From contig NZ_JACEGA010000001.1 of assembly GCF_014174405.1 (NCBI RefSeq), forward strand, positions 928,001 to 992,000: DNA of 64,000 nt. Reading direction: 5' to 3'. The position numbers and the translations under genes were made by a program. Positions within the stretch are counted from its first letter, which is position 1. Each line of letters opens with the position of its first letter. This DNA comes from Variimorphobacter saccharofermentans (lineage in GTDB: Bacteria > Bacillota > Clostridia > Lachnospirales > Lachnospiraceae). The notes under the pieces are model-generated. The model saw only the letters and a program-made list of their open reading frames with translations, did no database searches and had not been told where the DNA came from. Shown piece by piece: positions 33,166 to 37,212 of the stretch.

Positions 33166-33834
33166 TTATTTCAAATACTCTTCTTTATAAAAGGTGTTGC
33201 GAAATAATGTCATGTAGGCTTTGTATAAATCGACTGCTTCTTGAAAAATCAAAGAGAGTTGATTGTCAGATGACTTCTGTTTGTACTTGAGAGCGGCCTG
33301 ATTGGCACACCCTTCAGAACACCAGGTTATTAATTGAATCACCATCATTGGATTAATTCCTTCTTTGAATTTTGAATAATCAATTCCCTGGAAGAAAGCC
33401 ATAGCACGCTCATGCGTGTATCTTGTGTTGAACTTCTCTATTTCGCTCTTTACGCAGGGTGCTGTTTCAAATACTGATTTTTTCATGAAATCAGACATAT
33501 GCGGGTAGTCTATAGAACACTTCATCTTAAGTTGCTGAATGGCTTCTATACGCTCAAAAAAATCAGTGTAAATCATATAGGATGGGCAACCATCCGGTCC
33601 GGGACTGTCAACGATTTTTTCAAGTGTATTACCGCAGTATTCATACAAATACAGATAAAAATTCTTCTTCGATTCAAAGTAGTAGAATAAGCTGCCTTTT
33701 GATATACCGGCTTCTTTTGTAATAGCATCAACTGAGGATTTCGTATATCCGTATTCACTAAATATCTTAAGGCCAGCGTTTATAATCGCTAATCTCTTTG
33801 CTTCATCAAGATTTTCAAAGACATCGTAAGACAT
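33166..33834 (-). CDS. TetR-family transcriptional regulator
   Basis: 222 residues. N-terminal DNA-binding domain: AIINAGLKIFSEYGYTKSSVDAITKEAGISKGSLFYYFESKKNFYLYLYEY, the canonical TetR helix-turn-helix with the GSLFYYFxSK recognition end. The C-terminal ligand domain is not informative. ATG at 33834 has GAGAGG eight bases before it; an in-frame GTG nine bases earlier is less likely. Two copies of a TTGACCA/TGGTCAA palindrome overlap its promoter, so it most likely represses itself and the downstream ABC-2 transporter until a toxic ligand is sensed. Confidence 0.88.
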   Translation of the reverse strand: MSYDVFENLDEAKRLAIINAGLKIFSEYGYTKSSVDAITKEAGISKGSLFYYFESKKNFYLYLYEYCGNTLEKIVDSPGPDGCPSYMIYTDFFERIEAIQQLKMKCSIDYPHMSDFMKKSVFETAPCVKSEIEKFNTRYTHERAMAFFQGIDYSKFKEGINPMMVIQLITWCSEGCANQAALKYKQKSSDNQLSLIFQEAVDLYKAYMTLFRNTFYKEEYLK

Positions 33835-33867
33835 ATTTAGCACCTCTCATTCTTATCTAAGCTCTGT

Positions 33868-33886
33868 GTTGACCACTTTGGTCAAC
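33868..33886. promoter_or_regulatory. TetR operator 1
   Basis: GTTGACCACTTTGGTCAAC, a dyad with GTTGACCA/TGGTCAAC arms just downstream of the tetR -10 box on the minus strand. Its centre lies 33 bp, about three helical turns, from that of operator 2. Confidence 0.65.
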
Positions 33887-33889
33887 TTT

Positions 33890-33918
33890 ATAGTAACACA
33901 ATTGACCAAAGTGGTCAA
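33890..33918 (-). promoter_or_regulatory. tetR promoter overlapping operator 2
   Basis: On the minus strand TTGACC (33918-33913), 17-bp spacer, TACTAT (33895-33890). The -35 box is embedded in the palindrome TTGACCAAAGTGGTCAA (33902-33918), so repressor binding and polymerase binding exclude each other. Confidence 0.65.
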
Positions 33919-33950
33919 CAGCTTAATGAAATTCTAATCTTTAAGAAGAA

Positions 33951-33979
33951 TTGACAATTTTCAATTATGGTATTATTAT
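33951..33979 (+). promoter_or_regulatory. SigmaA-type promoter of the ROK / radical SAM operon
   Basis: TTGACA, 17-bp spacer, TATTAT; near-consensus. The only clear promoter found before the ROK regulator, the His/Tyr-x-Asp protein and the radical SAM gene. Confidence 0.65.
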
Positions 33980-34007
33980 TAAATAAACTTTTAAAAGTAT
34001 ATTTAAT
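33978..34007. promoter_or_regulatory. 30-bp palindromic operator candidate at the ROK promoter
   Basis: Arms ATTAAATAaACTTTT and AAAAGTaTATTTAAT form an almost perfect dyad overlapping the -10 box and the start site. Likely binding site of the ROK regulator encoded just downstream. Confidence 0.55.
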
Positions 34008-34024
34008 AAGTGGAGGTATATGAT

Positions 34025-35038
34025 ATGAAAATAGATGAATGTTCTCACTTTGATCAGGTTCGGGCTCAGAACAGAAAAACAATAAGGAATTTAATGAGGC
34101 ATTTTGCTTCGATTGGTAAAAGTGAACTTGCACGTATTTCCAGATTAAGCTTTCCCACTGTATCAGCAGTACTGAATGAATTACTAGATTCCAATGAAGT
34201 TATTATACTTCCGGAAGCAACTTCCCGAGGCGGGCGTCCGGGAGCAGAATATGCACTAAATCCTTTATATCATGTTGCAATCTGCGGATATCTGGAAGAA
34301 GAAACCCTTCATCTGCGTATCTGTGATACCTTAGGTAATACTTTAAGCGAGAAAATCATTGTAATAACGGAAGACATAAAACCAGAAGAATTATTAGAGC
34401 TATTTCAGGAAATACGGAAGGAATATCCTTCTTTATCAGTGATATCCTTAGGTGTTCCAGGTGTAGTTGATAAAGGAGTTATCTGCTCGCTTTCCTGCTT
34501 TACGAATATTAACGGCTTCCCAATAAAAGAGTATCTTGAGGATAACTTGGGACTACCGGTATTTATGGAAAATGACACCAACGTATTTACCTCGGCGGAG
34601 CGTGATATGTGGCCTGACTTGGTTCATTTATTCTTGAATCATGATTGTATCGGTTGTGGTATCCTTTTAAATGGTTCATTGATTAGGGGTGCGAACGGAT
34701 TTGCTGGAGAGCTGGAGCACTTATTAGTGGGAGATGGGACAGCTGATCGAAACTTGGGGACTATACTGAAAGATATTGCGGTAAGAGATACGAAGAAGAA
34801 GGATCATATCATTCAATTGTCTAAAATAATTAATACCTTTATATGTACGATCAACCCTCCCCATATTGCAATATCCGGATTCGAGATAAGTGAAGAGGAT
34901 TTGGATATTATCCTTTCCGTCTTAAAAGCAGGGATGGAAGAACGTTATTTGCCACAACTACACATTGTTGACGAGGTAGATGAACTCTATTTTACAGGAT
35001 TAACAGAGATTGTTTTGGATTATTGGAAATCGATATAG
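34025..35038 (+). CDS. Divergent ROK-family transcriptional regulator
   Basis: 337 residues. A winged helix-turn-helix (IGKSELARISRLSFPTVSAVLNELLDSNEV) precedes a ROK-like domain (ISLGVPGVVDKG, NINGFPIKEYLEDNLGLPVFMENDTNV, GIGCGILLNGSLIRGANGFAGELEH). The usual phosphate loop DxGGT is replaced (AICGYLEEETLHL) and the zinc motif CxCGxxGC after GELEH is absent (VGDGTADRN), so it is neither a sugar kinase nor a standard zinc-bearing NagC/XylR protein. ATG 34025 has GGAGG eight bases upstream. It begins the unit leading to the candidate peptide precursor 50 bp downstream, with no terminator between, and probably controls it by binding the palindrome at its own promoter. Confidence 0.8.
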   Translation: MKIDECSHFDQVRAQNRKTIRNLMRHFASIGKSELARISRLSFPTVSAVLNELLDSNEVIILPEATSRGGRPGAEYALNPLYHVAICGYLEEETLHLRICDTLGNTLSEKIIVITEDIKPEELLELFQEIRKEYPSLSVISLGVPGVVDKGVICSLSCFTNINGFPIKEYLEDNLGLPVFMENDTNVFTSAERDMWPDLVHLFLNHDCIGCGILLNGSLIRGANGFAGELEHLLVGDGTADRNLGTILKDIAVRDTKKKDHIIQLSKIINTFICTINPPHIAISGFEISEEDLDIILSVLKAGMEERYLPQLHIVDEVDELYFTGLTEIVLDYWKSI

Positions 35039-35088
35039 CTTAAAATTCTATACAAACAATAAACTTACACAGAAATGGAGGCAATTAT

Positions 35089-35211
35089 TTGGATTTGCTT
35101 TATCACCCAATTATATTGTATGCCAATATAAAACATGGTAAAATTAAATACAAATATCTGTTCATAACAAATATTAATGTCAAAGCCCAGTATAGAAAGG
35201 TTGCTAAATGA
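35089..35211 (+). CDS. 40-residue small ORF coupled to the candidate precursor gene
   Basis: Short TTG-start frame with GGAGG seven bases upstream (35077-35081). It encodes a basic, Tyr/Ile/Lys-rich peptide (DLLYHPIILYANIKHGKIK ... AQYRKVAK). Its TGA overlaps the ATG of the next gene as ATGA, the classical translational-coupling arrangement. No recognisable domain or signal peptide. It could be a leader or recognition peptide, a regulatory upstream ORF, or an N-terminal piece of the next protein separated by a frameshift. Start and overlap geometry argue that it is translated. No homology evidence available. Confidence 0.5.
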   Translation: MDLLYHPIILYANIKHGKIKYKYLFITNINVKAQYRKVAK

Positions 35212-35894
35212 AATTACTTTTAATCACAAAGAGTAAGAATAGACCAGTGGATGACCCATGGAGTTGGCTTAAAGGAGTGATCATAAATTCACAGGTAATT
35301 GAATTTAAAGGTAATATATTTGTATGGTTATATGAGCTTTATCCATTACTTGCGGACAAAATATATGAATATGAGGAAGACGTGGAATTAATTCTTGAAA
35401 TGTATCAGCGCTTTCGGATGACAGTCCCCAAGGTGTATTATGAAGATCAATTTAGGTCTCCTCAGAAAGAGAATGAGAAGAAAGATATTGAGAAGAAAGA
35501 TCATGAAAAGAAAGAAAATGGAGAAGAAAAAAGTATAGACAGTCTGTACGAGAAATATATTAAGCAGACACCTGATATTCCCTTATCAAATCTTAACAAT
35601 CATACGGACTACACCACACATAATGACTTTAATGGGTATGATGACCATGGCGACCATAGTCTGGATATACATGGTGATTATGGAAGGGATTATGATGATC
35701 ATATGGATAGCAGTAAATTTATTCATGGAGATTATATAGGGTGGAATAATAGACATGATGATGGTTACCAGGACTATGATGATCAATCACACGTCGATGA
35801 AACGCATAGCGATAGCTATAATGAGTATGATGATCACCAGCATAGAGATTATTTCTACACTGATTATAATGAACATACAGATATCAATAAATAG
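35208..35894 (+). CDS. Candidate RiPP precursor with 17 (His/Tyr)-x-Asp motifs
   Basis: 228 residues, no cysteine. Residues 1-83 look like a folded or recognition segment (KGVIINSQVIEFKGNIFVWL, YEEDVELILEMYQRFRM). 86-108 is a Lys/Glu-rich linker. From residue 132 to 225 an Asp/His/Tyr-rich tail carries 17 aromatic-x-Asp triplets, with aromatic residues at 132, 138, 144, 147, 155, 162, 165, 173, 183, 187, 190, 195, 200, 207, 212, 217 and 223 (for example HGD, YDD, HMD, HRD, YTD), plus WNN. A radical SAM/SPASM enzyme gene follows 23 bp later. Radical SAM maturases are known to cross-link such aromatic-x-Asp/Asn triplets into cyclophanes, so this is a plausible multi-core substrate. Alternatives: a metal-binding His/Asp-rich protein. 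Ribosome site AGAAAGG. Confidence 0.65.
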   Translation: MKLLLITKSKNRPVDDPWSWLKGVIINSQVIEFKGNIFVWLYELYPLLADKIYEYEEDVELILEMYQRFRMTVPKVYYEDQFRSPQKENEKKDIEKKDHEKKENGEEKSIDSLYEKYIKQTPDIPLSNLNNHTDYTTHNDFNGYDDHGDHSLDIHGDYGRDYDDHMDSSKFIHGDYIGWNNRHDDGYQDYDDQSHVDETHSDSYNEYDDHQHRDYFYTDYNEHTDINK

Positions 35895-35917
35895 GATTAG
35901 TTGAAAGAAGAAATTAA

Positions 35918-37048
35918 ATGGCGAAATATTATAATTATATAAACATGCTAGTCATGCCGACTGATATTTGTAATATGAATTGTATTTACTGCTTTCATAA
36001 CGAATTTCATGAAAAACAAGGGAAGATGACAGAGGAAACACTAAAGAAATTATACAGCATAACCCTTCCGCAATATAGACAGGTTAACATAATCTGGCAT
36101 GGTGGAGAACCTTTGGTTATGGGATTGGATTTCTTTAAGAATGCAATTTCCATGCAAAAAGAATACCCAGATTGTAAGGTGGAAAATCGTTTGCAGACTA
36201 ATTTAACACTAATGAATCAGGACTATTCTGAATTCTTTGCTAAAGAGAAGGTGGGTATCGGAAGTTCATTTGACGGATTATGTAATGATAGCTTAAGAGG
36301 AAATACGGATCAAATATTAAATGGAAGAGAAGTATTATTGCAGAATGGGAATTCATGTGGCTTTATCATGGTAGTATCCAGGAAGAATATTAACATGTTA
36401 GTGGAGGATTACCGTTATTTTAACGCACATAATATTAGCTATACGATAAATCTTTATGTTGATGCACTTGAAGATAAGAAAGAGGAGCTTTCACTGGATC
36501 CGTTTCATACGGTAGAGAGAATCAAACAGCTTTTTCATATCTGGATAGAAGATCCAAGCTGTAACATACATATTGATTATTTTGAGCGGTTTCTGAAATA
36601 TATTCTATATAAGGAAAAGCGTTTGTGTAAATACACCTCCTGTCTTGGAAAATGGGTCGGTATCCGGTATAACGGAGATATTGTTCCTTGTAATAGATAT
36701 TTCCCTGCGGAATATGGATACGGGAATGTCCATGATTTTCAAGATATCGGGGAAGCATTTGAAAGCGAGGGCTTCAAAAGACTGTTATCTGAGGCTATTT
36801 GCCGCCGAGAAAAATGTAAAGGTTGTGCAGCATTTGAGTTATGCTCAGGAGGATGCAATAACGAAGCGCTCAATGAAAAAGGTATTACGGAGAATGACGG
36901 AAACGGTTGTTTCATTTTCAGAGAAATTTATCTTTATATAAAAAAATACATGGAAGCCATTATTCAGGAGCGGAGCGTTTTAGATAGGATAAAAAACCCT
37001 CAGGTCCAAAATTTACTCAATCGCAAACGCAACCAATGTATGAATTAA
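35918..37048 (+). CDS. Radical SAM/SPASM peptide-modifying enzyme
   Basis: 376 residues. The radical SAM cluster motif Cys18-x3-Cys22-x2-Cys25 lies in DICNMNCIYCFH. IIWHGGEPLVMG is the GGE SAM-binding motif, and GSSFDGLCND follows. The C-terminal SPASM domain, expected to bind auxiliary 4Fe-4S clusters, shows CTSCLGKWVGIRYNGDIVPC, CRREKCKGCAAFELCSGGCN and a final GNGCF. This is the architecture of peptide and sulfatase maturases (AnSME, FxsB, cyclophane synthases). Immediate co-transcription with the repeated His/Tyr-x-Asp protein suggests that protein is the substrate. No sulfatase gene is nearby. Start from context; GAAAGAAG lies upstream of the ATG. Ends 82 bp before a strong terminator. 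Confidence 0.88.
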   Translation: MAKYYNYINMLVMPTDICNMNCIYCFHNEFHEKQGKMTEETLKKLYSITLPQYRQVNIIWHGGEPLVMGLDFFKNAISMQKEYPDCKVENRLQTNLTLMNQDYSEFFAKEKVGIGSSFDGLCNDSLRGNTDQILNGREVLLQNGNSCGFIMVVSRKNINMLVEDYRYFNAHNISYTINLYVDALEDKKEELSLDPFHTVERIKQLFHIWIEDPSCNIHIDYFERFLKYILYKEKRLCKYTSCLGKWVGIRYNGDIVPCNRYFPAEYGYGNVHDFQDIGEAFESEGFKRLLSEAICRREKCKGCAAFELCSGGCNNEALNEKGITENDGNGCFIFREIYLYIKKYMEAIIQERSVLDRIKNPQVQNLLNRKRNQCMN

Positions 37049-37129
37049 GGAGAACATTTCATTTCTGCAGATATAAATACGCAACCTTTCTTTATATTAT
37101 TAAAAATATAACAAAAATAACAAATCAAC

Positions 37130-37212
37130 CATAAGGAATCCCTTTCTTTTTGTAGTGATTTTCGCTAGACACATAATTCCGCTACAAAGGGAAAGAGGCT
37201 TCCTTATGTTTT
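37130..37212 (+). terminator. Hairpin terminator closing the radical SAM operon
   Basis: Stem CATAAGGAAtCCCTTTctttTTGTAG / CTACAAaGGGAAAGagGcTTCCTTATG followed by TTTT. Confidence 0.7.

Follow-up and report, generated by a model that had tools for sequence, protein, structure and literature searches.

What does a radical S-adenosylmethionine (radical SAM) enzyme do when the gene directly before it encodes a protein whose tail carries, 17 times over, a His or Tyr followed two positions later by an Asp? This question is raised by a gene pair in a 64,000-nucleotide stretch of the Variimorphobacter saccharofermentans genome (RefSeq assembly GCF_014174405.1, contig NZ_JACEGA010000001.1, positions 928,001 to 992,000), which we call the window, and in which coordinates are counted unless another locus is named. 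The pair comprises a precursor (substrate) gene of 228 aa (35208..35894, + strand), identified from its open reading frame (ORF) and two homologues with the same start, and, after an intergenic gap of 23 bp, a radical SAM/SPASM enzyme gene of 376 aa (35918..37048, + strand), identified from Pfam, cysteine patterns and homologues. This enzyme/substrate pair is real, in that it is conserved and recurs, and sequence comparison indicates that it probably represents a polycyclophane system of triceptide-like type whose enzyme clade has no name. What is new here are the HxD-rich repeats, the internal leader, and the tail that relatives of the enzyme carry.

A first-pass annotation of this DNA had described 17 (His/Tyr)-x-Asp motifs in a cysteine-free, 94-residue tail, and both points hold on counting: residues 126–228 contain 17 (H/Y)xD motifs, every one within the core at residues 132–225 (35601..35882, + strand; 11 HxD and 6 YxD by motif count and alignment), and no Cys. 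Shuffled tails contain a mean of 5.8 and a maximum of 14 such motifs, with 17 reached in 0 of 100,000 shuffles, and His or Tyr precedes Asp at other spacings (1 and 3–7) only 2–7 times each. One additional aromatic-x-D (YED, residue 78) lies outside the tail. A search with the whole precursor against 5.8 billion clustered proteins, by a method that requires shared 5-residue words, returned three matches at E ≤10 among 63 candidates, namely the protein itself, P0002 (83% identity by MAFFT, 82% by BLAST) and P0003 (55% and 43%, respectively). In P0003, 17/17 aromatics and 17/17 Asp residues are identical to those of the window precursor, with 8/17 middle residues the same, while P0002 retains all 17 motifs, one with His in place of Tyr. 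Such conservation is what one would expect if the chemistry uses the first and third motif residues.

The assignment of the next gene, 23 bp on, to the radical SAM/SPASM enzymes is borne out by Pfam scores above both cut-offs (Radical_SAM 43.3 bits, cut-off 29.5; SPASM 24.3 bits, cut-off 21.5), by a CX3CX2C radical SAM motif (residues 18–25, 35969..35992, + strand) that is invariant in the homologue alignment, and by the full pattern of SPASM cysteines (residues 237–331, 36626..36910, + strand). These two cysteine signatures, together with an adjoining precursor bearing aromatic-x-residue motifs, are among the features expected of triceptide systems (three-residue cyclophane-forming enzymes, 3-CyFE). 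The ORF and Pfam boundaries leave no N-terminal extension before the radical SAM barrel, and alignment of the enzyme model with VIA-align places anSME (closest) and ChlB (9gm3, 9gmc) as the nearest solved folds of the family. Matches to viperins in PADLOC were read as general radical SAM similarity and set aside, PHROGs matches are to general radical SAM families, and matches in plasmid and phage collections all lie below 60% identity (about 22–27%) and are mostly annotated as sulfatase maturases or unannotated.

The pairing itself can be followed across genomes. At E ≤0.001 the enzyme has 326 homologues, and the 120 listed comprise the enzyme itself and 119 proteins at 44–61% identity. A genome-contig scan with the enzyme kept 80 loci, and motifs were surveyed over 89. 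In 5/5 loci with a best-segment identity of at least 45% (L004 from Clostridia, L005 from Selenomonadaceae, L006 from Ruminococcus, L007, and L065 from Clostridiales), an (H/Y/W)xD-rich ORF lies directly upstream, which upholds the enzyme/substrate pairing proposed earlier; L065 has two such ORFs, with its enzyme truncated to 85 residues where the contig ends, and Trp occurs as the first motif residue in one case (L007). Homologues beside an unrelated substrate, named in the first-pass annotation as a finding that would speak against it, are absent from these five close loci, but distant archaeal relatives do have another core behind the same leader. Across the 89 loci, the list of those carrying five or more aromatic-x-D motifs within 60 residues has 15 entries; L001 and L085 among them are the window, L084 duplicates L004, and L029 encodes a long protease-like protein that we take as a chance match. 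No Bacteroidales locus is among the 15. The enzyme is rare, with matches at E 1e-60 in 5/391 genomes of the class, 2/397 of the family and 6/398 of the phylum, the own genome being included in each draw, and several genomes in these counts carry distant members beside other substrates. Among relatives of genome G183, a match was found in one of nine, G183 itself. Ten neighboring genes at L004–L007 were assigned by Pfam as AraC-type, citrate-transporter-like (just under the cut-off), serine hydroxymethyltransferase, aminotransferase, DEAD helicase, AAA_5, serine recombinase and three unmatched, and no third recurring gene appears among these ten.

A second recurring element is the leader. Short precursors of related loci start with an LYxxYhxQ[ST]-type leader (MSIDELFSEYESQT, MSISDMYNVYLQQT, MSNDELYKIYLKQA and similar), and the same pattern occurs inside the window protein as SIDSLYEKYIKQT (residues 109–121, 35532..35570, + strand), with the pattern itself starting at residue 113. 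The search pattern [LMI][FYCITL]xxYxxQ[STADI], composed after the precursors had been viewed, matched 44 times in 11,720 reading frames. Of these matches, 24 lie within 500 bp of an enzyme gene: the window (five copies), L004 (three), L005, L006, L007, L090, eleven archaeal loci (L008–L014, L020, L021, L031 and L061, the majority labelled methanogens), and a frame at L033 that overlaps the enzyme and is taken as chance. The two precursors of L065, where the enzyme is cut, fit the pattern as well but fall outside these 24. Including these two, the leader starts at residue 4–11 in 13/16 frames beyond the window's own, with later starts at L010 (residue 23), L020 (92) and L061 (82), the frames of the last two being seemingly over-extended. 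A profile search yielded five further precursors (P0124–P0128), all with the leader at the front, of which P0124 is nearly a copy of the L007 precursor and P0128 of the L065 precursor. The contrast with short precursors drawn in the first-pass annotation therefore applies to the window precursor together with P0002 and P0003, but not to the remaining precursors read, which are short (44–140 aa). Since its leader pattern is internal, the window protein corresponds to a canonical precursor extended at its front by a region of 84 residues and a K/E linker. We note separately that the three archaeal cores read (L008–L010) follow the same leader but are different, Cys-rich, and end in TYWPF or YSYWPF.

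Taking these observations together, the explanation we favor, with moderate confidence, is a RiPP-type pair (ribosomally synthesized and post-translationally modified peptide) in which the enzyme would dock on the leader inside the upstream protein and proceed along the next 94 residues, coupling the ring of each His or Tyr to the β-carbon of the Asp two residues on. The C–C bond and its position are those predicted from related enzymes, and up to 17 three-residue cyclophanes could form in this way. The product would be a rigid, acidic, ring-rich rod, joined through the charged linker to the 84-residue N-terminal region, and it may stay as a modified cellular protein, because no protease or exporter gene was recognized beside the pair. 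The ROK protein encoded upstream may regulate the unit.

Several points weigh against this polycyclophane reading. Among the NCBIfam matches listed (25 of 62 models), no cyclophane-enzyme model exceeds its cut-off, and the enzyme stays below that of every named peptide-maturase family (GrrM/OscB 92/310, AmcB 83/425, YhhB 70/445 and FxsB 43/370 bits against cut-off), while sulfatase maturase is among its closest named relatives by score. The +2 aromatic-to-Asp spacing was compared with 5000 shuffles in 15 cores with hand-chosen ends, and whereas at most 2/5000 shuffles reach the observed value in 10/15 cores, including those of the window and its two homologues, enrichment is weak in the other five (L006, L065a, L090, L043 and P0127; 127 to 476/5000 shuffles). 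Finally, a His-x-Asp cyclophane was not found in the literature searched, parts of papers included, which does not establish its absence from print.

The alternative that survives best, although we consider it improbable, is that the enzyme performs other chemistry on the HxD/YxD motifs, such as an ether or C–N link, epimerization, or oxidation of the Asp or aromatic ring. Related radical SAM/SPASM enzymes do carry out other reactions, as the best-scoring NCBIfam models among the matches listed are sulfatase maturase and DynA, and DynE forms one C–C and one C–N link according to PMC11002830; the exact +2 spacing and invariant Asp nevertheless fit an i to i+2 coupling. A still less likely possibility is that the enzyme's target, for example a sulfatase, lies elsewhere, with the tail left unmodified as a metal-binding or acidic, His-rich protein. 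His and Asp do bind metals in general, and the top NCBIfam score among the matches listed is indeed that of a sulfatase maturase (TIGR03942, 161.3 bits), but this falls well short of the cut-off of 349.45 bits, both leader and xD-rich core reappear next to the enzyme across unrelated taxa, and Tyr takes the place of His at identical positions, an exchange that metal binding would not favor. That the motif density arose by chance in a low-complexity tail, whose composition is biased (24 D, 13 H and 12 Y of 103 residues), is practically excluded by the shuffles described above and by the retention of the motifs across two homologues.

Comparison with known systems places the polycyclophane reading in context. 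HxsABCD systems contain a repeat protein with His-x-residue (His-Xaa-Ser) repeats beside radical SAM genes, but with Ser in place of Asp and with two radical SAM enzymes. Proteusins have unusually long leaders, and in borosins the substrate can sit on the enzyme itself, although both use other enzymes and other chemistry than the window pair. An aromatic-x-Asp cyclophane, proposed earlier as the best chemical model, draws support from YxdB, which like the window enzyme is a radical SAM/SPASM enzyme acting on aromatic-x-Asp and which, according to PMC11002830, forms a C3(Tyr)–Cβ(Asp) link; the aromatic and Asp residues are those conserved here. Compared by description, the window system departs from that of YxdB in its HxD motifs (11/17), in the internal position of its leader, and in its additional N-terminal region. 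The same paper describes a C2(His)–Cβ(Ala) link for HaaB and coupling of Tyr or His to Arg for YhhB (PMC11002830). The ring partner, as would apply to the window enzyme, is His C2 or Tyr C3, but with Ala or Arg rather than Asp as the other partner, and with the YhhB model far below its cut-off for the window enzyme, as given above. ChlB is called a multiple cyclophane synthase in a title in the reference list of PMC12636437; it shares 18% identity with the window enzyme in the structural alignment, and the latter lacks a HEXXH domain. The same article also covers a cyclophane enzyme in fused form, with a hydroxylase acting on Asp and His. Aro-Xaa-Asn and Aro-Xaa-Xaa-Asn motifs appear, with TvgB listed, in PMC9062424; TvgA/TvgB resembles the window pair in that a repeat substrate is modified many times by one radical SAM enzyme, but there TVGG repeats yield cyclopropylglycine (PMC9062424).

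A further element concerns the C-terminus of the enzyme. The window enzyme ends in an NP element, NPQVQNLLNRKRNQCMN (36995..37045, + strand), with no HxD tail, unlike its near relatives: 25/36 enzymes ranked next to it (P0005–P0040) have two close [HY]xD motifs in their last 45 residues, as do 27/119 listed homologues overall, with a typical end of NP-x-h-xxx-LL...HYDVHHDS. The NPxh motif is found in 109/120 listed enzymes. In the model of P0021, the NP helix (residues 356–363) lies mostly within a block at a predicted local distance difference test (pLDDT) score of 95, and the HxD tail (373–383) is below 50, either mobile or unplaced. In four archaeal loci (L027, L028, L033 and L043), NP is absent from the last 60 enzyme residues, and the next ORF opens, ahead of HxD-type motifs, with NPVLARVI, NPVLARVI, NLIIKKAL and NPIVRKAL, respectively; these ORFs have 11 motifs at L028, 5 at L043, and few at L027 and L033. 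A search of 22,039 frames for an NP-like element plus two motifs found those four loci, L004's enzyme (four copies), and L009 and L055, which look like chance. This suggests, from few loci and a short similarity, that NP serves for docking, acting in cis in bacteria and in trans at the four archaeal loci. In a quick tree of 128 enzymes (LG+G4, C-terminal parts removed), the tail needs 7 changes against a shuffled mean of 26.5, and the window enzyme falls in no supported subset. It is conceivable, though we rate it as doubtful, that this is a poly-cyclophane family with a docking element able to be part of the enzyme, that the HxDxHxD tails are possibly self-modified in a borosin-like manner, and that the window product is a rigid multi-ring rod on a cellular protein rather than a released peptide.

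If the polycyclophane reading is true, a single enzyme installs as many as 17 strained rings in one protein, from imidazole and phenol with Asp as partner. Known chemistry would then gain both a His–Asp cyclophane and a polycyclophane on the scale of a protein, along with a natural repeat system for tests of processivity. With a leader common to archaeal systems of different core, and NP on the enzyme (bacteria) or a neighboring ORF (some archaea), how enzymes that lack a recognized RiPP recognition element (RRE) find their substrates would become directly testable.

The extra N-terminal region (residues 1–84, 35208..35459, + strand) is kept in P0002 and P0003, and is followed by the charged K/E linker (residues 85–108, 35460..35531, + strand), whose length varies among homologues in the alignment. 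The precursor start is supported because both homologues have the same N-terminus, and, as Met occurs only at positions 1, 65, 71 and 166, no ATG is situated shortly upstream of the leader, which begins at 109. The first-pass annotation's long folded N-terminal region exists, but as an add-on preceding the internal leader, and with a fold predicted at low confidence: AlphaFold modeling of the precursor (three sequences) gave a mean pLDDT of 41.3, with about 50–58 and no reliable fold in this region, where a β-β-β-α-α arrangement is weakly predicted at about 55. That order of strands and helices had suggested a PqqD-like RRE; comparison with the PqqD profile gave a probability of 0.39%, equaled by 25/100 column shuffles, from a three-row profile with little power, and the genome of the window contains no PF05402 match. 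The region returned a best E of 1.7 against PDB sequences and nothing significant against PHROGs, and in 391 genomes of the class it matched the window and, at 30%, a sensor-histidine-kinase-like frame taken as chance. Pfam matches of the precursor are all below cut-off (Rpc25 16 of 25.1 bits, GCD14 11.5 of 26), and a viral-contig scan with P0003 gave no match. Against 34 genomes of the genus, P0003 had some match at E ≤10 in 20, most falling in the linker-like part; outside the own genome the best E was 0.001. Within the window's own genome there is one precursor-like match.

Upstream of the pair lies a ROK-family regulator gene (34025..35038, + strand; Pfam ROK 51.9 bits, cut-off 22.9), with a reading frame that starts further 5' in the ORF listing (GTG 34010). 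Its earlier description as divergent has to be corrected, as it is co-directional with the pair and divergent only with respect to a TetR-like gene (33166–33843). Beyond itself, the ROK protein has only 26–27% identity matches at E 1e-20 in the 34 genomes of the genus, so that only its position ties it to the pair. Of the control elements that it was thought to share with the pair, the terminator stands, as a terminator-like hairpin (37130..37208, + strand, −34.6 kcal/mol, z −5.8, 0/200 shuffles as good), but a shared promoter is not borne out: the TTGACA-17-TATTAT site ahead of the ROK gene (33951..33979, + strand, 11/12 matches) is one of 18 such sites across the scan against a shuffle mean of 17.8, and the ROK gene lies 169 bp from the pair. 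A 34-nt palindrome without spacer (33976..34009, no strand; 17-nt arms, 94% complementary) is a possible ROK operator. By reading of the sequence, ribosome sites before the precursor and enzyme genes are both plausible, ABC-type genes and the TetR-like gene lie upstream on the minus strand, and a LysR-like gene follows the hairpin. The claim that no protease or exporter is adjacent holds between the TetR-like and LysR-like genes, where none was recognized, but about 1 kb upstream the ABC-type genes may encode a transporter. The inverted repeat TGTTGACCACTTTGGTCAA (33867–33920; 19 nt, perfect) ahead of the TetR-like gene and its ABC-type genes is a probable TetR operator, more likely belonging to that gene than to the pair.

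Some loci met in the scans deserve mention in their own right. The HxD pair of L006 (4591–11632) stands near restriction-type genes (an AAA_5 protein; Vsr and REase_II matches) and that of L007 adjoins serine-recombinase genes; both are possibly mobile islands. In L107 (G636:C38), from another species of the genus, a related enzyme is represented at a contig end by its C-terminal third. On the viral contig IMGVR_UViG_3300037044_000078, L090 (4844–7283) encodes a 45-residue YxD-type precursor with the leader pattern, then a radical SAM gene, and then holin-like and amidase-like ORFs, and reads like a phage-borne version beside lysis genes, the lysis names being by reading only. Radical SAM gene groups at L112 (G1077:C1:2261000-2273000) and L108 (G048:C25:4000-14000) stand beside aromatic-rich-repeat proteins of 385 and 1307 aa, with amidase-like ORFs at both and a holin-like ORF at L112; these proteins are possibly radical SAM-modified phage or prophage proteins. 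Lastly, small twin-arginine translocation (TAT)-like or lipoprotein-like proteins near radical SAM genes at L068 (437–688), L080 (92–325), L063 (2187–2624) and L053 (7195–8291) end in dense YxD, SDW or EYxD repeats, with the TAT model just under its cut-off in L068 and L080, and could, at a guess, be YxdA-type precursors.

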